Below are positions 90 through 8,708 of a stretch of 8,708 bases of DNA, in pieces. The stretch is taken from positions 903 to 9,610 of the forward strand of contig PLXB01000113.1 in the NCBI GenBank assembly GCA_003151215.1. Direction: 5' to 3'. The DNA is from Ignavibacteriota bacterium. Its GTDB lineage: Bacteria; Bacteroidota; Kapaibacteriia; Palsa-1295. The notes under the pieces are model-generated. The model made no database searches, was not told the DNA's origin, and was given only the letters and a program-made list of their open reading frames with translations. The position numbers and the translations under genes were made by a program. Position 1 is the stretch's first letter, and every line of letters starts with the position of its first letter.

Positions 90-1172
90 TTAAAAGGCTT
101 TCTCATCCTTCCATTCGGTACGAATTTCCTGAGACTGTGTAAAGAGTATATGATCGTGGAAGTAATGAGTAAGCAGGAAACAGAGAATTACCATGTAATA
201 ACACTGGTCGAAGGTCAGGTGATGATATTGTTGTGTCAGTATCAGCAAGCCAATAACAGAAATTGCCGTAAGAGCAGCAAGCATGGTAAACCCATAAAAA
301 CGATACCATTTACCAGGCTCAGAGAGTCTGCGTACTGCGGGATTTGAGATTTCTCCGCGATCATATCTGAGCCTATTGATATACCATGTCAAGCCAAGAT
401 ACTGGAAAGAATGCCAGGAATTAAGTCCTTGAAATGCTACATCCAGTTCATGAAAAAACGGTGTAAAGAACGTTGCTAATATTGTTACCGTAATTAGGAT
501 CGTCTTGGGAATATTGCCGATGCCGAGTTGAAATTCACGAATAGTTTTCGCAATATAAAGAATAAACGAGATCGCAAAAATTCCACTTGCAAGCCACCAG
601 ACAATATCCACTTTCAAGAATTCGGGGAAATATAGAACTTGCTGACCGACGGTAAACGTATTGTGAGTAAACTTATACATTGCCATGGGATATAAGGCGG
701 AAAGAACAACAGCATAATCAATAGTACGCGAATACTTTGTTAGAAGCGAACGCTGGCGTTCATTATAGCAATCGACAATGAAAATGATCTGATGCAGAAC
801 GTGAATACTTGCCCAAAAAAAGAAGAATGTTAGAAGATAGGTAAAATGAAAGATAGCAGAGTAGATAACGAGCGAAGGAATAATGATCGCCATTGGAATG
901 ATGGTCCAATAACGTCTACGGAATTTCGGCTCAAGAAGAGTTCTGGTATAAGTAGCATACATGTGAGGGCCGCCGATCGCGAAGGCAATAATTGTATTGA
1001 CAGTGTTGCGGGCAAGGTCCGGATTAAAACCAATAGCCCTCCCCAAGTAGTAGGTGCTATATGGTACAAACATCAGTAGCACAGAAAGTGAAACCCACGT
1101 CAAATCCCACCGGGGCGATTTAAGCCAGAGCGATGAATGTCTTGGAGTGGAATCAATTGCAAGCGTAGTCAT
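90..1172 (-). CDS. Polytopic membrane protein with conserved-looking histidine motifs, function unknown
   Basis: I do not recognise a named family with confidence. From the chosen start the protein has 360 residues and about eight or nine hydrophobic segments (roughly 25-45, 58-73, 90-110, 112-134, 152-166, 190-209, 222-240, 294-313 and 325-340), so it should sit in the inner membrane. Histidines cluster at segment ends: GGPH (H70), HVLHQ (H124, H127), FFHELD (H241), NSWHSFQYL (H254) and HYFHDH (H336, H339, H341). This pattern suggests a membrane metal site, as in integral-membrane oxygenases or desaturases, and loosely recalls Brp/Blh carotene-cleaving proteins; that comparison is inference. 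The frame stays open upstream to an ATG at 1298. I chose 1172 because a consensus -7 box (1205-1212) lies between the two starts, and the extra 42 residues are basic and look non-conserved. There is no clear ribosome binding site. It is divergent from the S1 gene. Confidence 0.75.
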   Translation of the reverse strand: MTTLAIDSTPRHSSLWLKSPRWDLTWVSLSVLLMFVPYSTYYLGRAIGFNPDLARNTVNTIIAFAIGGPHMYATYTRTLLEPKFRRRYWTIIPMAIIIPSLVIYSAIFHFTYLLTFFFFWASIHVLHQIIFIVDCYNERQRSLLTKYSRTIDYAVVLSALYPMAMYKFTHNTFTVGQQVLYFPEFLKVDIVWWLASGIFAISFILYIAKTIREFQLGIGNIPKTILITVTILATFFTPFFHELDVAFQGLNSWHSFQYLGLTWYINRLRYDRGEISNPAVRRLSEPGKWYRFYGFTMLAALTAISVIGLLILTQQYHHLTFDQCYYMVILCFLLTHYFHDHILFTQSQEIRTEWKDEKAF

Positions 1173-1204
1173 ACGTTTCTTGGAAATACGGATACTCCCT
1201 AATA

Positions 1205-1212
1205 CAAATTTA
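1205..1212 (-). promoter_or_regulatory. Bacteroidota-type -7 promoter element for the membrane protein gene
   Basis: The minus strand reads TAAATTTG, an exact match to TAnnTTTG, the -7 element used by the main sigma factor in Bacteroidota. Its near edge is 32 nt before the ATG at 1172, leaving a short leader. No convincing -33 TTTG is visible at the usual 19-21 bp. The box lies inside the longer open frame that starts at 1298, which argues for the 1172 start. Confidence 0.5.
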
Positions 1213-1343
1213 CGACAAAAAAGTCCCGATATTACTTTTTTTATTAGAAAACGATGATTCGGTTCTCCAAGTCTTGGAAATAGGAGCTGTTTGCTCATGT
1301 AAATAGCTATAACCGAAAAAAAAGCTAAGGGATGTTTTTCCTC

Positions 1344-1438: not shown

Positions 1439-2719
1439 ATGTTAAACCAAAACGAAGAGATCGAACCTACTGAAATTACCGCTATTCCTGAAGCTTCAAC
1501 AGATGAGACTCCCCTAGTGGAATCGGAACCTCTTCCCGAAAGAGCATCGGGACCACTCGACCCTTATGAAAAGCTTCGTCGTTCCCGCGAAATTATTAAC
1601 GCAAAAGTCATCAAGTGGGCGAATAACGGACTAGAGGTTGAACTTGAAGGCGGAGTGAAAGCCTCGATGCCAAATAATCATATTGATCTTGACCCTGACC
1701 GCAATATTGCGAAATATTTCGGCAAAACCGTGCCTGTACGCATTATTAATCTAAAAAAGGAATACGGGCACCCGTCCATCAGCGTTTCCCATCGCTCCGT
1801 CTTGGAAGACGACCTGAAGAAAGCTTCGAAAGAAACACTTGAGACAATGAATGTCGGCGATGTAATTGAGGCAAAGGTTAAGGCATTTAATATTAAAGAT
1901 GTCATTGTCGATCTTGGCCCCGGAGTAGATGCATTCATTCATGGAAGGGATCTTTCGTGGGAAAATTTTAATCACCCATACGAAATAGTCAAGCGCGGAC
2001 AAACGATCTCCGCCAAAGTGTTGCAGATCGATAAGAAACACCGGAGAATCCAACTCGGTATCCGGCAACTCACGCCCGATCCGTATTTAGAGAGCTTCGG
2101 AAAATTTCATGAGGGAGACCGGGGAAATGCAAAAGTTTTGAGCATTAACGATTTTGGCGCTGAAGTTAGTATTTCCGATAACATCACTGCCTTCCTTTCT
2201 ATTTCTGAAATTTCATGGGAAAGAATTTCTTCGGTTGCATCGGAAGTGAATAATGGCGATGAATTCGAAGTGCAAATCTTAAGTGTCGATCCGAAGAAAA
2301 GACGAATTACCGTTTCGAAAAAACGCCTGATCGAAAATCCGGTACGCCAGCGTGAAGAGAAATATAAGATCGGCAGCGATCATAATGGCACGATCAAAGA
2401 AATTACCAAAGGTGGAATTGTTGTTAGTTTCGGAGACGGCAACGAAGGTTTTGTACCCCGCCGCGAACTCAGTCATGACCGCATCGAGCGATTGGAAGAT
2501 GTCTTCAAAAAAGATAAACCGATCGAAGGTCTACGCGTTATTGAATATGACCGTAGAGATGGCAAGATCACACTTTCTTTCATCGCTGCTGAAAAAGAGG
2601 CGCAGCGCAATACTCTAAAAAATTATCGTGCAACACCAAAGGGTTCGAGCTTCTCATTAGGCGAGCTTGGATCATTAAAAGAAAAGCTCGAGCAGGCGGA
2701 AGCCAAAAGGTTAGAATAA
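1439..2719 (+). CDS. rpsA: 30S ribosomal protein S1-like, four S1 RNA-binding domains
   Basis: This is an OB-fold RNA-binding protein of the ribosomal protein S1 family, expected to bind mRNA on the 30S subunit and help initiation, which matters where Shine-Dalgarno sequences are scarce. It has 426 residues. An acidic, Glu/Thr/Pro-rich N-terminal segment (about 1-40) is followed by four S1 repeats at about 51-120, 138-208, 223-294 and 309-382, and a charged tail ends in a short predicted helix (about 408-426). Repeats show typical S1 signatures such as VDAFIHGRDLSW (domain 2), AFLSISEISW (domain 3) and EGFVPRRELS (domain 4), each ending in a basic strand like KKRRITVSKKR. Many S1 proteins of this group have six repeats, so this is a short version; it could be the only S1 or a paralogue. 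The ATG at 1439 has only a weak purine stretch (GAAAG) about 10 nt upstream. It is monocistronic, divergent from the gene on its left and convergent with the one on its right. Confidence 0.85.
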   Translation: MLNQNEEIEPTEITAIPEASTDETPLVESEPLPERASGPLDPYEKLRRSREIINAKVIKWANNGLEVELEGGVKASMPNNHIDLDPDRNIAKYFGKTVPVRIINLKKEYGHPSISVSHRSVLEDDLKKASKETLETMNVGDVIEAKVKAFNIKDVIVDLGPGVDAFIHGRDLSWENFNHPYEIVKRGQTISAKVLQIDKKHRRIQLGIRQLTPDPYLESFGKFHEGDRGNAKVLSINDFGAEVSISDNITAFLSISEISWERISSVASEVNNGDEFEVQILSVDPKKRRITVSKKRLIENPVRQREEKYKIGSDHNGTIKEITKGGIVVSFGDGNEGFVPRRELSHDRIERLEDVFKKDKPIEGLRVIEYDRRDGKITLSFIAAEKEAQRNTLKNYRATPKGSSFSLGELGSLKEKLEQAEAKRLE

Positions 2720-2906: not shown

Positions 2907-2928
2907 TTTATTATTTAACAATAATAAA
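2907..2928. repeat. AT-only inverted repeat over the phosphatase stop codon
   Basis: TTTATTATT (2907-2915) and AATAATAAA (2920-2928) form a perfect 9-bp inverted repeat around a four-base loop, covering the last codons and stop of the phosphatase gene. With only A-T pairs the hairpin would be weak. It may be a by-product of AT-rich codons rather than a functional site. Confidence 0.2.
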
Positions 2929-4776
2929 CGAGGTTGAATGAACTTGATTTCCGCAGTAAATGATACAGTAATACGTACCTGTACAAAGAGAATTTGTAGG
3001 AATGGTTGTAGAAAATTCACCAGATGAAAGTGGCCCTTCAAAAGAAGCGACTTCTACTCCGTTTGAAGAAAAAACTTTTATTTCTACCGGCGATTGATTT
3101 ATAATTGTAAATTGAATCGTGGCAGAAGTAATTGCCGGATTTGGGAAAATCTGAATTACGTCTTTACTATTGCCAACAGTACTTTTTTGCACGGAAAGTT
3201 TAAGGCTGCTCACTCTGCCTTCGATCAGTGGTTTGATTGTATCACGTTTCGAAACATACCCTGAAACGACTTGAAACTCAGACGTATCACTATAGATTTT
3301 CAGATCACTGATAGGAATTCCGACGGTACCAAGAAAGAGCGCAGCAAATTCATTTGCAGCAATCGTATACATTTTCCCTGTATCGAGTAATGTGTTCGCG
3401 ATCATCACAGAACGCAGACGGCTATATTGCGGCGCAGTCGGATCATAATTATATTTCATCCCCGATGCTTGGACAAGGAATTCATCATTCTGTTCAATAT
3501 CTGAAAGACCGAACTCCAATCCTTCCGCAAGGGCAGCGCCTGACATCTTGAACGTAGCGAGCCTGTACCCCAAGCCATTATCAGTGTTATAACCATATCC
3601 GATCATCCGGAAAATATCCGCACCGACAACGGGACCGTGATATAATTTATCTGCCGTTGAACCGCCAACTTCGATGGCAACGTCTGCTCCCGTCAATGCG
3701 CGGAATGCATCGGTAACAAGATTGCCGACCGGCGTATCATGATTTCCTTCCGAAGTCAGGTTCTCAGCCACCTCATCAAAATCATTAAACGCATAGGTCA
3801 GCTTTTGTGAATACACCGGGCCGAACATCACTTCGACACCTTTTATTAATGTATCTATAAGAGCTTTCGTCTGCGGTTCTTCAGGAATATTTTCATCAAG
3901 CGGGATGAGTGTATAATCAAGAAATTTTACATTTGTACCATTAACAACAAGATGGATTTTTCCTATAAACGAATAATGCGCTCCGGCTTGCACGATCGGA
4001 ATCGTATCCCCCGAAATATTCACTACCTGCCTCGGAGTCTGGAATACATAATGATCGTGTCCACCGATAATCATCGTGATCCCAGGCACAGATTTTGCAA
4101 TAAGTGAATCAAGAACATATCCTAAATGCGAGAGCAACAGTATCACATTGCATCCTTTTTCTTTCAGCGTATCTACCATTGCCAGAGATATTTGAATCAA
4201 ATTTGTATCCAGAAAAGCCGGTGAAGGCTGTGAGAGTTGATTTGTTGAAGGTGTAGTCAATCCGAAGATCCCGATCTTGGCTACGCCATACATCTTTATA
4301 GTATAGGATTGAATATATTTTTTCAATCCCAGAACAGAGGAATCTTCGAGTACACAATTCGCTGATAGAAATGGAAAAGTAGATATTCCAGTGAATGCCG
4401 TATCCAAGACTTGTTTCAAGGTAGCGGGAGTCAAATCGAATTCATGATTGCCGACCGTCATTGCATCAAGCCCGAGAGCTGAAAGAATACGAAGTTCCGG
4501 TACTCCGAAATAGGCATTATAAAAAATGTCGCCGACAGAAAAATCTCCTGCATGAAGTGTGAGTACATTTCTCTCCGTCATTTTTGTTAGACCAATAACA
4601 GTTGCTGCACGTGCAATACCACCCCGCGTGCCTTTAAGATCAGTCGTGCGCGGCCCATACGGAGCAAGTCCTGAATGTGAGTCGTTCATATGTAGAATAG
4701 TTATTGTATCTGTCTGTGCAAATAACGCGCTATATGATAGAATAAAGAAGAAGCAAAAAGAAATAATTGTTTTCAT
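2911..4776 (-). CDS. Secreted 5'-nucleotidase/UshA-family metallophosphatase with T9SS sorting domain
   Basis: This is an exported two-metal phosphoesterase, 621 residues. The signal peptide is about 1-20 (ALFA before Gln21). The N-terminal calcineurin-like domain carries every expected metal-site motif: MNDSH (D32, H34), GDFSVGD (D78), GNHEFD (N110, H111, D114), LLSHLG (H217) and GGHDH (H240, H242). A 5'-nucleotidase C-terminal domain follows (about 330-515, starting near TPVGNLVTDAFR). The last 80 residues (IFPNPAITSATIQF through GTYY to a basic end) form a T9SS type A sorting domain, predicting passage through the outer membrane and release or surface anchoring. The substrate-binding loops are atypical: the usual GGGIR and GGDGY motifs are not present, so the substrate may not be an ordinary nucleotide. 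The start ATG follows a 37-bp spacer after the barrel gene upstream, without a Shine-Dalgarno, so co-transcription is likely. Family assignment is firm; substrate is unknown. Confidence 0.9.
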   Translation of the reverse strand: MKTIISFCFFFILSYSALFAQTDTITILHMNDSHSGLAPYGPRTTDLKGTRGGIARAATVIGLTKMTERNVLTLHAGDFSVGDIFYNAYFGVPELRILSALGLDAMTVGNHEFDLTPATLKQVLDTAFTGISTFPFLSANCVLEDSSVLGLKKYIQSYTIKMYGVAKIGIFGLTTPSTNQLSQPSPAFLDTNLIQISLAMVDTLKEKGCNVILLLSHLGYVLDSLIAKSVPGITMIIGGHDHYVFQTPRQVVNISGDTIPIVQAGAHYSFIGKIHLVVNGTNVKFLDYTLIPLDENIPEEPQTKALIDTLIKGVEVMFGPVYSQKLTYAFNDFDEVAENLTSEGNHDTPVGNLVTDAFRALTGADVAIEVGGSTADKLYHGPVVGADIFRMIGYGYNTDNGLGYRLATFKMSGAALAEGLEFGLSDIEQNDEFLVQASGMKYNYDPTAPQYSRLRSVMIANTLLDTGKMYTIAANEFAALFLGTVGIPISDLKIYSDTSEFQVVSGYVSKRDTIKPLIEGRVSSLKLSVQKSTVGNSKDVIQIFPNPAITSATIQFTIINQSPVEIKVFSSNGVEVASFEGPLSSGEFSTTIPTNSLCTGTYYCIIYCGNQVHSTSFIIVK

Positions 4777-4813: not shown

Positions 4814-5401
4814 TTATGGTAAAATGGTTATGCCAAAATTCAAGCCAATATTTGATCCTGAGTATTCTCCTCCTTCTGAATTGGAATAGGATTGCCTCCG
4901 ATATTCTATTTCCGTTCGAATAGCTGCATGAGTGCCGATAAGGAATTTCATTCCTGCTCCGGCGGCAAAAATTGTAACGCTACTTTCATTACTTCCTTGG
5001 TTTTCCACAATAAATGATCCGATTGCCGGAAGTTGCAACCCATTAGAAATTCCGTATCCTATCCGGACAAATGGAGCGTATGTTTTTTCAGTGAAGGCGA
5101 ATGTATAAGAAAGATTCGCCACACCTGATAGTCCTGAGCTTCCACTGCCGTTTTCCGGATCAATAATGGTTATACCAAGTTCCGGCTCGAATGAAAGACC
5201 CTCAAGAATATAATAACCGGGCATGATTGAAAGATTGATGATTGTAGTGGAAGAAGATCTTGTGTAAGGCACAGTTGACTCTGTGAATGAGCCAAATCCA
5301 CCAAGCAGAGAAAGCTCGACGCTCCCTTTTTTGAATTGTGCAAATGCCGGTGATGCATTTATGCCGGCAAGGAATGTGATGATAATGATAGCTTGTTTCA
5401 T
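4814..5401 (-). CDS. Small exported beta-barrel protein, probable outer-membrane porin-like
   Basis: This is a 195-residue protein with a signal peptide (about 1-21, cleavage after AFA and before Gln22). The mature part is made of alternating hydrophobic/polar strands separated by Gly/Ser/Asn-rich turns, for example VELSLLGGFGSF, LSFEPELGITI, YAPFVRIGYGIS, TIFAAGAGMKFLIG and AIRTEIEYRRQ. This resembles an eight-stranded outer-membrane beta-barrel of the OMP_b-brl/OmpA-like type. It ends GLNFGITILP, lacking the usual aromatic last residue. The start at 5401 is preceded by a consensus -7 box (5437-5444) and has no Shine-Dalgarno. The phosphatase gene follows after 37 bp, so the two probably share a transcript. 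Ligand or function cannot be inferred. Confidence 0.75.
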   Translation of the reverse strand: MKQAIIIITFLAGINASPAFAQFKKGSVELSLLGGFGSFTESTVPYTRSSSTTIINLSIMPGYYILEGLSFEPELGITIIDPENGSGSSGLSGVANLSYTFAFTEKTYAPFVRIGYGISNGLQLPAIGSFIVENQGSNESSVTIFAAGAGMKFLIGTHAAIRTEIEYRRQSYSNSEGGEYSGSNIGLNFGITILP

Positions 5402-5436: not shown

Positions 5437-5479
5437 CAAAAATATTTTTTGGGAAGTTTGAATTGTCTTGAGTTGGTCA
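5437..5479 (-). promoter_or_regulatory. Promoter C: -7 box with two 11-bp-spaced TGACAA-like half-sites
   Basis: On the minus strand the box TATTTTTG (5437-5444) matches TAnnTTTG exactly, and 35 nt separate it from the ATG at 5401. Upstream of it, read on the plus strand, are TTGTCT (5463-5468) and TGGTCA (5474-5479), each one mismatch from TTGTCA and exactly 11 bp apart. The first lies 18 bp beyond the -7 box, where the -33 region would be. The arrangement repeats at 6205 and 7095 with stronger half-sites. Any third repeat here is degenerate. Confidence 0.45.
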
Positions 5480-5487
5480 CAGAATCA

Positions 5488-6168
5488 TTAATATGCATAC
5501 GTTAACCCCATCACAAGGATCACAGGTGGGCCGCCGATCCAGCTATTCTGACTGGCTAGCTTTATGCCGCTCAACACCAGTCCGACTTCTGCCTGCGCTA
5601 CGAGATGATCGGTAATTGGCTGAGTTGCTCCGGTCTGGATGGTATTCCAAATACCCCCTTTGAAGCCTGGGCCCATCATTTCGTTATTATCTTTTTCCAA
5701 ACCGAAAGTTTTGCCCAGTGAATGTGCACAGCAAGCGCCTACAGCACCAATACCCGCCCACATTCTTCTACCACAGTCACGAGTATATTCAATGTTGAAA
5801 GCCGGCCAGGCAAGAAACCATGGTTCGCCACCCAGTTCGTGAGTTAGCGGATAATAAAAGACCGGCGAACGAAAGTATATGCGCAGATTATCTTCAGGCT
5901 GGCTAATAATTGTGCGAATGCGAATGCCATAGCCTTCAACTGCAGGGGTCTGCCCGTACATAAAGCCGATCGTTGTCTTATCGGAAATGCCGTACGCATA
6001 CTCGGCAATTCCGACATACGGAATTCCTGTTGTAAGTGTCACCATCGAATGCCCCTCACCGGTAAAAAGATAATCAGGCGAATGAACAATGCAGGTTTGA
6101 GCAGATACCAGTGAACATAAAAATGTAGTTGTTAACATTGCGATTAAAATGCGAGATGAGTTTTTCAT
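5488..6168 (-). CDS. Exported protein of unknown function, probable outer-membrane beta-barrel
   Basis: The product has 226 residues and I do not recognise a family. The signal peptide is about 1-23 (cleavage after VSA and before Gln24); C18 and C26 do not fit a lipobox, so it is not an obvious lipoprotein. The mature chain has repeated amphipathic strands (SMVTLTTGIPYVGIAEYAYGI, KTTIGFMYG, IRIRTII, LRIYFRSPVFYY, VAQAEVGLVLSGIKL) and ends MGLTYAY, an aromatic terminus typical of proteins inserted by the BAM machinery. Four cysteines remain after cleavage (C26, C132 and adjacent C146-C147), unusual for a barrel and possibly disulfide-bonded or metal-binding. It has its own promoter (-7 box at 6205-6212) and no Shine-Dalgarno. 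A three-codon ATG-ACA-ATA-TGA frame overlaps its start codon. It sits between two other small barrel genes that share the promoter layout. Confidence 0.7.
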   Translation of the reverse strand: MKNSSRILIAMLTTTFLCSLVSAQTCIVHSPDYLFTGEGHSMVTLTTGIPYVGIAEYAYGISDKTTIGFMYGQTPAVEGYGIRIRTIISQPEDNLRIYFRSPVFYYPLTHELGGEPWFLAWPAFNIEYTRDCGRRMWAGIGAVGACCAHSLGKTFGLEKDNNEMMGPGFKGGIWNTIQTGATQPITDHLVAQAEVGLVLSGIKLASQNSWIGGPPVILVMGLTYAY

Positions 6169-6204
6169 ATTGTCATTGAAAAAATGTAACTAAATTTTCT
6201 TCTA

Positions 6205-6273
6205 CAAAAATGGCGAATTAGAAGTCCGGGTTTGTCACAGAATTTTAAGAGGTTTGTCAAAAGATTGTCATGG
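6205..6273 (-). promoter_or_regulatory. Promoter A: -7 box with an 11-bp lattice of TGACAA half-sites
   Basis: On the minus strand a CATTTTTG box (6205-6212, one base off TAnnTTTG) lies 36 nt before the ATG at 6168. Further upstream, read on the plus strand, perfect TTGTCA hexamers sit at 6232-6237, 6254-6259 and 6265-6270; a degenerate TTTTAA occupies the vacant 11-bp slot at 6243-6248. The last hexamer contains the TGA stop of the preceding gene. The block aligns without gaps to 7095-7163 (52 of 69 identical), including 14 identical bases at the -7 end and 13 at the far end. Confidence 0.55.
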
Positions 6274-7059
6274 AAGTATTCCAAGTTCCAGACCGACACT
6301 TACTCCAGAAGTTCCTCCGTTTCCGATCTCCGCCCAGCCTGAAACCGAGAGCCCGATCCACGATGAAAATTTTACAAGCATGTGAAGTGAAACCGGGATA
6401 GTGATATTCACATCGGATTCAATTGAAGAAGTGTACTGATACCAGCTTTCCGGCTGTGAGGTAGGGATAAATAGAATCCACCCGGTCCCTTGCTGAGTGA
6501 CTTGTGTGCAATTGTGATACTGTACGTAATTCCTAGTAACTGCTGCCAGACCTATCAAGGGCATCAGAACGATGGTCCCTTTTGCATAACTAAAAACTTT
6601 GCCCACAATCAGTGAGAATTCATTAATCCCATCTAAAGTAGTTGCCAAATCAGCTACAGGGCTGCTGATCGGATTCCCGTTAGGAAACCATCCGGCAAAT
6701 AACGGAACACCCCACGCAGTTGCCGGAGTATTATTCTGGCGCGGGTCTCCACCGTATTGCCGATAGTCTCCCTGGATCACCCAATTCCCTACTCCAATAT
6801 CAAAACCAAGGCTGAACTGTAATTTTGGAATATTAGCCGCACCGAATTCTCCTCTGAATCCTATATAAAGTTTTTCCGGTTGTGAAGTAAGAGTATGCCC
6901 CAGGTTTATCAAAGTGTCAGAATTATATTTCAATTGTAAGTTAGCACTCGTATCTCCTCTAAATGGCTTTATTATTTGAGCCAATTGTGCTTTTACTCTG
7001 CTGTTCAGAAAAAAAATAGTTGCAAAAATAGTCAAGAGAATTGATATTATTTTGGGCAT
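6268..7059 (-). CDS. Exported protein of unknown function, probable outer-membrane beta-barrel
   Basis: The product has 263 residues and no family is recognised. A long hydrophobic signal peptide (about 1-24, cleavage after VKA and before Gln25) leads into a mature chain rich in amphipathic strands and glycine/asparagine turns: KLYIGFRGEFG, KLQFSLGFDIGVGNWVIQGDYRQYG, EFSLIVGKVFSYAKGTIVLMPLIGLAAV, VNITIPVSLHMLVKF and WIGLSVSGWAEIG. This is the look of an outer-membrane barrel. It ends SVGLELGILP, echoing the LGITILP-like end of the barrel encoded at 4814-5401, so the two may be distant relatives. The gene is preceded by promoter B (7095-7163) and lacks a Shine-Dalgarno. It is the first gene after the regulator/kinase pair and is separated from it by a hairpin, so it probably forms its own transcript. 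Confidence 0.7.
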   Translation of the reverse strand: MPKIISILLTIFATIFFLNSRVKAQLAQIIKPFRGDTSANLQLKYNSDTLINLGHTLTSQPEKLYIGFRGEFGAANIPKLQFSLGFDIGVGNWVIQGDYRQYGGDPRQNNTPATAWGVPLFAGWFPNGNPISSPVADLATTLDGINEFSLIVGKVFSYAKGTIVLMPLIGLAAVTRNYVQYHNCTQVTQQGTGWILFIPTSQPESWYQYTSSIESDVNITIPVSLHMLVKFSSWIGLSVSGWAEIGNGGTSGVSVGLELGILP

Positions 7060-7094
7060 CTGTTTTACACGAAAAAATTATACATTTTCTAATG

Positions 7095-7163
7095 CAAAAA
7101 TGGCGAATCGGAGAAGCGCAATTGCCATCGAATCTTCAAAGATTTGTCACAAGATTGTCATGG
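7095..7163 (-). promoter_or_regulatory. Promoter B: second copy of the -7 box plus 11-bp TGACAA lattice
   Basis: On the minus strand CATTTTTG (7095-7102) lies 35 nt before the ATG at 7059. Read on the plus strand, slots at 11-bp intervals hold TTGCCA (7122-7127), TCTTCA (7133-7138, weak), TTGTCA (7144-7149) and TTGTCA (7155-7160). The two distal sites are perfect and form an 11-bp direct repeat with core TTGTCAC-AAGA-TTGTCAT. The same register is kept at 6205-6273. The leader downstream also resembles copy A (AGAAAAT, then an ATTTTTTC stretch). Confidence 0.55.
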
Positions 7164-7234: not shown

Positions 7235-7915
7235 TTATTTTACAAACTTATACCCTGATGTATGGACTGTAATAAGATGCTTCGGCTCGGCAGGATTATC
7301 TTCGATCTTTTTGCGAATGGAGAGGATGTAATTATCTACTGTCCTTGTTGTCGGGAAGACATCATAGCCCCATACTTCATCAAGGAGTTTATCGCGCCCT
7401 AAAACTTCTCCTTCATGCTCGATAAAAAATTTTACTATCTGAAATTCTTTTGCAGAAAGTTTAATGAGAATTTTCTTTTTGGAAGCTTCTTGTTTTTTGA
7501 AATCAAAATGGAGATCACTAAAAGAGGATTCTTCGATGCCTTTTTTTAGATCCTGTGTGCGGCGAAGGAGAGCTTTGATTCGGGCTTTAAGTTCACGGAT
7601 GCTGAACGGTTTTGTCAGGTAATCATCAGCCCCGATCTCAAGACCGAGAACTTTATCGATCTCATCGGATTTACTGGTGAGCATCATCACAAGAGTATTA
7701 ATTCCCTCCTTGCGAAGTTCGCTGCATATTTCCATGCCATCTTTTCCCGGCAGCATCAGATCGAGCAGAATGAGATCAACGCTTGGATTTCGTGCCTGCT
7801 TCAATCCATCTATACCTTCGGAGGCAAGAAGCACTTCATAATTATCTTCGGCAAGTCCGGTTTCAAGCGCGAGTCGGATCGCCGGGTCGTCTTCGATGAC
7901 AAGAATCCTTTTCAT
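7235..7915 (-). CDS. OmpR/PhoB-family response regulator
   Basis: This is a two-component transcription factor of 226 residues, full length for the family. The receiver domain (about 1-118) shows the acidic pocket E8-D9-D10, the phospho-acceptor D52 in LLDLMLPG, the switch T80 in MMLTSKS and the conserved K102 in LTKPF, so it should be phosphorylatable. A linker (about 119-132) leads to a winged-helix DNA-binding domain (about 133-226) with KLSAKEFQIVKFF, the recognition-helix region RTVDNYILSIRKKIE and the terminal wing TVHTSGYKF. Its ATG overlaps the kinase stop codon (ATGA), implying translational coupling and a cognate pair. Members of this family usually bind as dimers to direct repeats spaced about 11 bp, matching the TGACAA lattices in front of the three barrel genes just downstream. 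The stimulus is unknown, and PhoB/PhoP/OmpR-type orthology cannot be settled here. Confidence 0.92.
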   Translation of the reverse strand: MKRILVIEDDPAIRLALETGLAEDNYEVLLASEGIDGLKQARNPSVDLILLDLMLPGKDGMEICSELRKEGINTLVMMLTSKSDEIDKVLGLEIGADDYLTKPFSIRELKARIKALLRRTQDLKKGIEESSFSDLHFDFKKQEASKKKILIKLSAKEFQIVKFFIEHEGEVLGRDKLLDEVWGYDVFPTTRTVDNYILSIRKKIEDNPAEPKHLITVHTSGYKFVK

Positions 7916-8708
7916 GAAGTAATAAGAGGAAAATATAATGCAAAGATACTGCCTTTTCCAACTTCACTCTTTGCTTCAACTCTTCCATTATGCCCTTCCA
8001 TTGTATGCTTGACAAGCGAAAGTCCAAGCCCCGCACCTCCGACAGATTTCATGACGTTATTTTTTATCCGGTAAAAGGGTTCGAAAATATGCTCTATTTC
8101 GCCGGAAGCAATTCCATATCCTTCGTCTTCCACTTGGAGAAGCGCAAAGCGATTTTCAGCAGAGGTTGTTATTCGAAGGTTTTTTCTATCCGCAGGTGAA
8201 TATTTCATCCCATTGGTAATCAGATTTACCAGTACATCAAAAATTGCATCGGCATCGCCTTCAATAGTTAACGAAGCAGAATCAAATGAAGTATAAATAT
8301 GAAAACCGTTTGAATGGATCTGATAAGCAAGAGACCGGATGACATCGTTCGCGACAACATTCAGATCAATATGTTTCAGTCTATAATCTTTCGTTCCTTT
8401 TTCGACCTTCGCAAAATCAAGCACATTACCAATAAGGCGTGAAAGCCGATCGGCTTCTCCTTCAATAATACCAAGATACTCATTCCTTTTTTCGGAGGTA
8501 ATATCCTTTTTATCTTTGAGCAGCTCGGCAAAAAGACGAATCGAGGTCAATGGAGTTTTCAAATCGTGCGATACAGCTGAGACAAAGTAGGACTTCAATG
8601 TATTCAGTTCAGTAAGTCTCTCGGATTCTGCCTGTTCCAATAAAAGAGCAACCAAAATACTTTGCCGTTCGAGTGCTAATCCTGCTTGAATACTCACGGA
8701 GTTCAATA
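7912..8708 (-). CDS. Sensor histidine kinase, C-terminal part (cut by window edge)
   Basis: The reading frame is open to the right end, so only the last 264 or so residues are visible. The first visible TTG codon (8704-8706) is probably internal. The segment at the visible start (SVSIQAGLALERQSILVALLLEQA) resembles the final helix of a GAF domain running into a signalling coiled coil, suggesting a GAF-type sensor upstream; this is inference. Then come a HisKA domain with the H-box SAVSHDLKTPLTSIR (phospho-acceptor at visible residue 47) and an HATPase domain with N-box NLITNGMKYS (161-170), G1 box DEGYGI (194-199), F-box IFEPFYRI (207-214) and G2 box GGAGLGLSL (223-231). All motifs for autophosphorylation are present. 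It is upstream of and overlaps the response regulator by 4 bp, so it is its likely partner. Confidence 0.93.
   Translation of the reverse strand, partial: LNSVSIQAGLALERQSILVALLLEQAESERLTELNTLKSYFVSAVSHDLKTPLTSIRLFAELLKDKKDITSEKRNEYLGIIEGEADRLSRLIGNVLDFAKVEKGTKDYRLKHIDLNVVANDVIRSLAYQIHSNGFHIYTSFDSASLTIEGDADAIFDVLVNLITNGMKYSPADRKNLRITTSAENRFALLQVEDEGYGIASGEIEHIFEPFYRIKNNVMKSVGGAGLGLSLVKHTMEGHNGRVEAKSEVGKGSIFALYFPLITS

Follow-up and report, generated by a model that had tools for sequence, protein, structure and literature searches.

What are the TGACAA hexamers that stand in 11-bp register in three successive spacers of this DNA, and which protein would read them? The stretch in question, 8,708 nucleotides of contig PLXB01000113.1 from an Ignavibacteriota bacterium (hereafter the window), carries on its minus strand three genes, here called barrels A, B and C. 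Each is preceded by a copy of the same lattice, consisting of a box that resembles the -7 element of Bacteroidota promoters and, upstream of it, the hexamers. From our comparisons with related genomes, we consider the lattice likely to be the operator of a response regulator (RR) of the OmpR/PhoB family, most likely the RR encoded at 7235-7915, which would be driven by the sensor histidine kinase encoded at 7912-8706 and beyond. The elements of the three copies are as follows.

5437..5444, minus strand: copy C, -7-like box TATTTTTG (TAnnTTTG), 35 nt upstream of the barrel C start
5463..5468, minus strand: copy C, proximal half-site AGACAA (TTGTCT on the plus strand), 18 bp from the box; matrix match 5463-5479 scores 12.9, and 10.4 with the matrix trained outside the window's order
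5474..5479, minus strand: copy C, distal half-site TGACCA (TGGTCA on the plus strand), inside matrix match 5463-5479
6205..6212, minus strand: copy A, -7-like box CATTTTTG, 36 nt upstream of the barrel A start
6232..6237, minus strand: copy A, proximal half-site TGACAA, 19 bp from the box at the presumed -33 position; matrix match 6232-6248 scores 26.7, and 24.4 with the matrix trained outside the window's order
6243..6248, minus strand: copy A, degenerate register position TTAAAA; matrix match 6243-6259, score 14.1
6254..6259, minus strand: copy A, half-site TGACAA; matrix match 6254-6270, score 21.6
6265..6270, minus strand: copy A, half-site TGACAA farthest from the box; it overlaps the barrel B stop codon (upstream gene)
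7095..7102, minus strand: copy B, -7-like box CATTTTTG, 35 nt upstream of the barrel B start
7122..7127, minus strand: copy B, proximal half-site TGGCAA (TTGCCA on the plus strand), 19 bp from the box; matrix match 7122-7138, score 23.3
7133..7138, minus strand: copy B, degenerate register position TGAAGA (TCTTCA on the plus strand); matrix match 7133-7149, score 8.8
7144..7149, minus strand: copy B, half-site TGACAA; matrix match 7144-7160, score 26.4
7155..7160, minus strand: copy B, most distal half-site TGACAA, an exact hexamer match

Copies A and B each contain two or more direct repeats of TGACAA in 11-bp register, and copy C is a weaker version. The gap between proximal hexamer and box is 19 bp in copies A and B and 18 bp in copy C; the box is an exact TAnnTTTG in copy C and begins with C in the other two (CAnnTTTG). 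Outside the lattice, exact hexamers occur singly, as TTGTCA at 6170 and 7612 and as TGACAA at 7897 and 8010. Copies A and B align without gaps over 69 bp (6205-6273 against the segment at +890) with 52 identities; the second-best offset of this length in the window gives 40. A sequence-only reading of the window had described this arrangement, and its coordinates were right: TTGTCA on the plus strand at 6232, 6254, 6265, 7144 and 7155, TTGCCA at 7122, TTGTCT at 5463 and TGGTCA at 5474, with boxes 35-36 nt from the start codons and gaps of 18-19 bp. Its alignment of copies A and B was reproduced, and so was its remark that the proteins behind these copies look unrelated in sequence, as barrels A, B and C have no meaningful mutual similarity in BLASTP (best E 0.10).

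For a test against chance, a position matrix was built from 46 sites in genomes outside the window's order, and 500 windows were simulated with a Markov-1 model. Seven positions in the window score at least 5 with this matrix (10.0 to 24.4), none of which lies outside the three spacers, and every one is on the minus strand. The top score anywhere in the simulated windows was 21.6, and 28 of the 500 reached 10. Because their scores of 24.4 and 22.6 exceed this simulated maximum, copies A and B are secure and beyond chance; copy C scores 10.4.

The pairs of hexamers accompany the RR in related genomes. Its orthologues in the relatives found are 90% (G074), 89% (G066), 67% (G101) and 65% (G153) identical, followed by others of one class. 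Relatives were gathered via RR orthologues in a whole-genome search, and the closer ones were taken from that search because the best matches listed in a contig scan with the RR alignment were 60-61% identical. Among 245 genomes of one class, 63 contain a match to the RR at E <= 1e-72 (RR+) and 182 do not (RR-). We counted TTGTCA-N5-TTGTCA pairs in both groups, with a spacing one base longer (N6) as the control. There are 125 N5 pairs in the RR+ and 93 in the RR- genomes, compared with 76 and 148 N6 pairs (Fisher P 1e-6), and at least one N5 pair is present in 51 of the 63 RR+ versus 65 of the 182 RR- genomes (P 6e-10). Proximity to the RR gene was counted for 91 of the 125 N5 and 46 of the 76 N6 sites of the RR+ genomes: 12 of these N5 sites, spread over 10 genomes, are no more than 5 kb away from it, where 0.32 would be expected for 3-Mb genomes, versus none of the N6 sites (0/46). 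The three counted N5 sites of G153 match the three pairs at its RR locus (L136), matrix sites in G066 separate the RR gene from a downstream gene for a peptidase C92-domain protein, and in G121 (L226) a pair stands upstream of the kinase-RR operon.

The genomic context was read for 55 of the 125 N5 sites, in 24 RR+ genomes, overlapping pairs in L232 and L241 being counted separately. The loci were hand-picked, not random, from the matches listed, and comprised 24 first loci (RR loci, pairs close to an RR, and further pairs from genomes that are closest or rich in sites, with L225 lacking an exact pair), 20 further N5 loci and 20 N6 control loci. Intergenic position was found for 53 of the 55 N5 sites and for 3 of the 20 N6 controls. 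A start codon follows within 150 nt in the TGACAA direction at 45 of the 55 N5 sites and in the opposite direction at 9, the corresponding counts for the N6 controls being 0/20 and 0/20. A scan of relatives for paired hexamers with promoter placement had been proposed in the sequence-only reading, and this outcome agrees with its view, supported by conservation across the relatives, of a real regulatory site in helical register before non-homologous genes. We conclude that the sites very probably mark a conserved regulon of the RR, because the pairs track the RR, cluster near it, lie between genes and point at gene starts, and because homologous targets recur behind them.

Alignment of the 53 intergenic sites, from which the in-gene N5 sites of L234 and L257 had been dropped before columns were counted, revealed, one register upstream, a third half-site of TTTACA-like sequence that is weaker than the other two and, 19 bp downstream, a T-A-n-n-n-T box (T 79%, A 90%, T 86%). 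An exact (T/C)AnnTTTG was found in 9 sites at offset 19; it also occurs once each at offsets 10, 30 and 57 and twice at offset 41, of which 30 and 41 are 11-bp steps from 19. When one mismatch is allowed, the box stands at offset 19 in 26 of the 53 sites, and no other offset has more than 4; counting a single site per locus gives 19 of 41, and no other offset then has more than 3. According to the published work, Bacteroides promoters carry TTTG at -33 (PMC7366714), and a box over -12 to -5 has been reported for Flavobacterium (PMC9723704). If the box considered here likewise spans -12 to -5, the proximal hexamer would fall at about -37 to -32, where Bacteroides has its -33 TTTG. The lattice resembles the Bacteroidota sigma-A promoter in the type of its -7 box, TAnnTTTG, and differs from it in that a half-site of the RR type would occupy the place of TTTG, and in the C that opens the box of copies A and B (PMC7366714, PMC9723704). 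The suggestion, already made from the window alone, that the proximal hexamer stands in the place of a -33 box gains support from the relatives, in which a spacing of exactly 19 bp is far commoner than any other.

We envisage the following course of events. The kinase would phosphorylate the RR, and the phosphorylated RR would bind head to tail along a single helix face, covering two to four half-sites, with its proximal protomer at the -33 place helping sigma-A to initiate transcription. Three transcripts would be activated in this way: that of barrel B, that of barrel A, and that of barrel C together with a 5'-nucleotidase-like gene. In the order of transcription, the minus strand carries the genes for the histidine kinase (cut at the window end), the RR, barrel B, barrel A, barrel C and the 5'-nucleotidase-like protein, as listed here.

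7912..8706, minus strand: sensor histidine kinase (PF00512, PF02518), truncated at the window end so that only its cytoplasmic part is present
7235..7915, minus strand: OmpR/PhoB-family RR (PF00072, PF00486), adjoining copy B, the proposed binder of the lattice
6268..7059, minus strand: barrel B, open reading frame (ORF) with its start codon at 7059, presumed target of copy B; barrel fold unconfirmed
5488..6168, minus strand: barrel A, start codon at 6168, presumed target of copy A; predicted outer-membrane beta-barrel fold
4814..5401, minus strand: barrel C (PF13505, OMP_b-brl), start codon at 5401, presumed target of copy C
2911..4776, minus strand: 5'-nucleotidase-like protein with a type IX secretion system (T9SS) sorting tail (PF00149, PF02872, PF18962), 37 bp behind barrel C

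The three targets had been taken for barrel genes from the outset, which the predictions bear out for two of them. Barrel C matches PF13505, and barrel A is an outer-membrane beta-barrel by predicted fold: its model has a mean predicted local distance difference test (pLDDT) score of 85.6, and all 20 matches in the PDB at E <= 0.001 are outer-membrane barrels, with modest template modelling scores (TM-scores). Barrel B could not be confirmed. It has no Pfam match, and its structure model (mean pLDDT 48.1, low confidence) was set aside as too poor to use; as a probe it found no match in a search of genome contigs, and three relatives besides itself among proteins. The 5'-nucleotidase-like gene probably shares the transcript of barrel C. 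Among the named proteins close to those of the window are some from records of Kapabacteria, Ignavibacteriae and Melioribacteraceae, so that the window would probably belong to this part of Bacteroidota. The remainder of the window includes a 402-amino acid, hydrophobic-looking protein (90-1298, minus strand) without a match in Pfam or NCBIfam, and an S1-domain protein (1439-2719, plus strand) with four Pfam S1 stretches that stays under the cut-offs of the rpsA models listed; a homologue of the former adjoins the S1 gene in G066 (85% over 216 amino acids).

Homologues of the window's targets recur behind sites in other genomes. Those of barrel A were found in G074, G101 and G153 (L131, with matrix sites, L134 and L136), and the G101 copy matches copies A and B in its 22+11 layout. 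Those of barrel C were found in G243, G187 and G126 (L249, L225 and L227; 40, 33 and 26% identity), the two more distant ones, in L225 and L227, standing behind matrix sites. The 5'-nucleotidase homologue is the first gene in seven loci (L131, L224, L227, L232, L233, L234 and L238, from G074, G187, G126, G212, G030, G061 and G010), the second gene in L250 (G243), and lies beside a site between divergent genes in L230 and L231 (G156 and G224). This makes 10 genomes with a site-linked homologue out of the 24 in which N5 loci were examined, L234 being counted although the ORF rule places its site within a gene. In L227 (7991-9873), where the site is strong, the homologue behind it aligns as two overlapping pieces, so that the gene or the assembly is broken there. 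As several loci were read for a pair near the RR, the recurrence of targets partly reflects conserved neighbourhood. No common family emerged when 36 first-downstream proteins were compared with Pfam, a set that left out the 5'-nucleotidases, the L226 kinase and several others: of the 30 families, 25 of which were shown, radical SAM occurs in two proteins and the others listed in one each, including Omp85, subtilase and outer-membrane barrels. Signal-like N-termini, assigned by a crude hydrophobicity rule, are present in 35 of 43 targets versus 93 of 174 other ORFs at the same loci (P 9e-4). The part played by the 5'-nucleotidase as a recurrent target had been overlooked in the earlier reading, as had the likely binder, the RR beside copy B.

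Some other repeats were encountered in the searched genomes. G221 has many TTGTCA-N4-TTGTCA pairs in 10-bp register (for example C6:62747-62877, C22:128644-128787 and C5:216645-216775), several of them arranged as doubled sets at a distance of about 105 bp; these may represent a further operator or a repeat element. Two sequences recur many times on both strands like dispersed short repeats, TTGTCATTTGTCA in G107 and G094 and TTGTCATTCGTCATTTGTCA in G107, and repeats of about 21 bp that contain TTGTCA, perhaps a coding repeat, are found in G245 (C79:8393-8566).

The best NCBIfam match of the RR is YycF, with 207.2 bits against a cut-off of 340, and it also misses the cut-offs of two PhoB equivalogs (198.7 against 296.2, and 165.6 against 270). 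The partial kinase matches the PnpS and PhoR models below cut-off. Its full-length orthologues have about 820 amino acids, and all 15 examined (L131:12715-15183 and 14 others, alignment A3) contain HisKA and HATPase domains. A PDZ model is matched close to the N-terminus in 7 of the 15; in addition, one orthologue matches a seven-transmembrane (7TM) model weakly, and up to five match a given GAF model. The sensor layout predicted for these orthologues is unusual, and one might guess from the PDZ-like region of some of them that the kinase responds to an envelope cue.

Several observations weigh against assigning the lattice to this RR. Copy C is weak alone and convincing only through its position, its strand and its homologues. 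The totals over the 245 genomes are nearly equal for N5 (218) and N6 (224) pairs, so that the signal lies in the split by RR, in position and in place. The recognition helix is nearly invariant in the RR orthologues displayed, and the same helix, TTRTVDNYI, is present in RRs of other phyla too and is therefore no proof of specificity. No matrix site was found at two RR loci (L133 in G101, RR 67% identical, and L137 in G109, 61%), the pair before the kinase in L226 is the sole case among 15 kinase loci, and 27 of the 53 sites of the relatives have no recognisable -7 box at 19 bp. Of 20 N5 sites read in RR- genomes, 7 lie between genes and 5 have a start codon no more than 150 nt away; a more diverged RR or another one of the OmpR family may therefore use the motif there. 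Such promoter-like sites in genomes without a close RR orthologue, together with second OmpR-type matches (44-49% identity) in several relatives, would suit a lattice of the same operator family that is owned by a paralogous RR encoded elsewhere, the neighbouring RR being a bystander or sharing the sites. We regard this as rather unlikely, as the enrichment follows the RR encoded at 7235-7915, 12 of 91 sites are found no further than 5 kb from its gene, and the kinase-RR operon of L226 has a pair upstream. It is very improbable that copies A and B represent a recent promoter duplication and nothing else, with repeats kept by descent rather than function. Their 52 of 69 identities at one offset fit such an event, and duplication may be the reason for their closeness; as a full account, it was ruled out by other genomes, where sites with this register, direction and 19-bp gap stand before unrelated genes, and by the 22+11 layout at the G101 homologue of barrel A.

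We return to the RR encoded beside copy B, and to how its presumed operator compares with known ones. On its coding strand, the E. coli K-12 phoA promoter contains CTGTCA-N5-TTGTCA, with 11 bp between the proximal hexamer and TATAGT, which we take to be the -10 element; an exact scan of the E. coli phoB promoter found one CTGTCA and no exact pair. The lattice shares with the PHO box of PhoB the TGTCA core of the half-site and the 11-bp register, and PhoB sites overlap the -35 region (PMC3348028). It differs in orientation, as TGTCA lies on the coding strand in phoA (one of two E. coli promoters read) and on the opposite strand here (TGACAA coding), in distance, with 11 bp to TATAGT versus 19 bp to a TAnnTTTG-type box, and in its presumed regulator, which misses both PhoB equivalog cut-offs. 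The form hexamer-N5-hexamer has been described for WalR/VicR (TGTWAH-N5-TGTWAH) and for the PhoB consensus (PMC4168254), so that the earlier remark that no described motif with this exact layout is known was not supported: the form is that of the OmpR/PhoB family, and phoA provides an example. WalR/VicR (YycF) is similar in this form and in being the best NCBIfam match of the RR; the half-site differs (TTGTCA versus TGTWAH), the RR stays under the YycF cut-off, and the reported VicR positions vary, whereas here the position is fixed relative to the -7 box in about half of the sites. VicR sites have been found on either strand (PMC4168254), and OmpR domains are able to bind in either order (PMC4117788). 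The envelope regulon of CenR in Rhodobacter (TGA-N8-TGA; PMC9275681) resembles the present case, by description only, in its OmpR-family RR, tandem direct repeats and envelope genes, and differs in a shorter, unlike motif and another phylum. In the accessible part of the literature, with most subscription papers outside it, no listed paper was found to describe the motif, an RR regulon of Ignavibacteria or Kapabacteria, or, in Bacteroidetes, an RR that uses direct repeats together with TAnnTTTG. Operators of the OmpR/PhoB family are recognised by half-sites repeated directly every 10-11 bp, by a regulator with receiver and Trans_reg_C domains that is encoded and co-occurs, and by a fixed position relative to promoter elements; all three traits are found here, the last in about half of the sites. 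By sequence comparison, the layout is of a familiar kind and the regulon appears new, with the flipped orientation of the module relative to the promoter as its one unusual feature.

The frequent occurrence of 5'-nucleotidases among Pho targets (PMC4415409) led us to consider control by phosphate. The lattice would then be a true PHO box and the system a PhoBR, with phosphate starvation inducing the 5'-nucleotidase and the porins, which would be a special case of the RR operator proposed above. The TGTCA core at 11-bp register, as in E. coli phoA, and the PhoB and PnpS/PhoR models among the best NCBIfam matches are in line with this. We searched 10 genomes and found 19 PstS-type genes in 8 of them, whose upstream regions were scored with the matrix; some start calls are uncertain, and operon starts further upstream lay outside the coverage. 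One of the 19 has an upstream score of at least 12 (L284 in G187, 16.4) and two reach at least 6 (also L283 in G153, 7.5); the remaining 17 score below 6, among them G243 (L287) with 5.9. The PstS promoters of G187 and G243 contain repeats of TTAACA rather than TGACAA, likewise in 11-bp register. TTAACA is the half-site of Bacillus PhoP. These promoters therefore suggest a separate phosphate operator, and the phosphate genes may own a related array of the TTAACA type. With the RR under the PhoB cut-offs, the kinase matches below cut-off and the PstS upstream regions mostly scoring below 6, we lowered our estimate of phosphate control, which now seems unlikely.

The operator of the neighbouring RR remains our preferred reading of the lattice. 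A fuller picture can be offered tentatively and is itself doubtful: a large, PDZ-bearing kinase of several domains of Ignavibacteria- and Kapabacteria-like Bacteroidota, watching the envelope, might drive porin-like barrels and an exported 5'-nucleotidase via a flipped, PHO-box-like array. In this array the TTGTCA-N5-TTGTCA module of PhoB would be reversed and placed 19 bp from the -7 box, so that the activator would meet sigma through a different face and substitute for the -33 element, with the phosphate genes keeping a separate TTAACA array. The finding provides a sequence-predictable regulon, together with its likely regulator, in a group met here mostly as metagenome-assembled genomes. 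It would tie outer-membrane barrels to a nucleotide-degrading enzyme, and it suggests how an activator of the OmpR/PhoB type may fit the unusual promoter of Bacteroidota.

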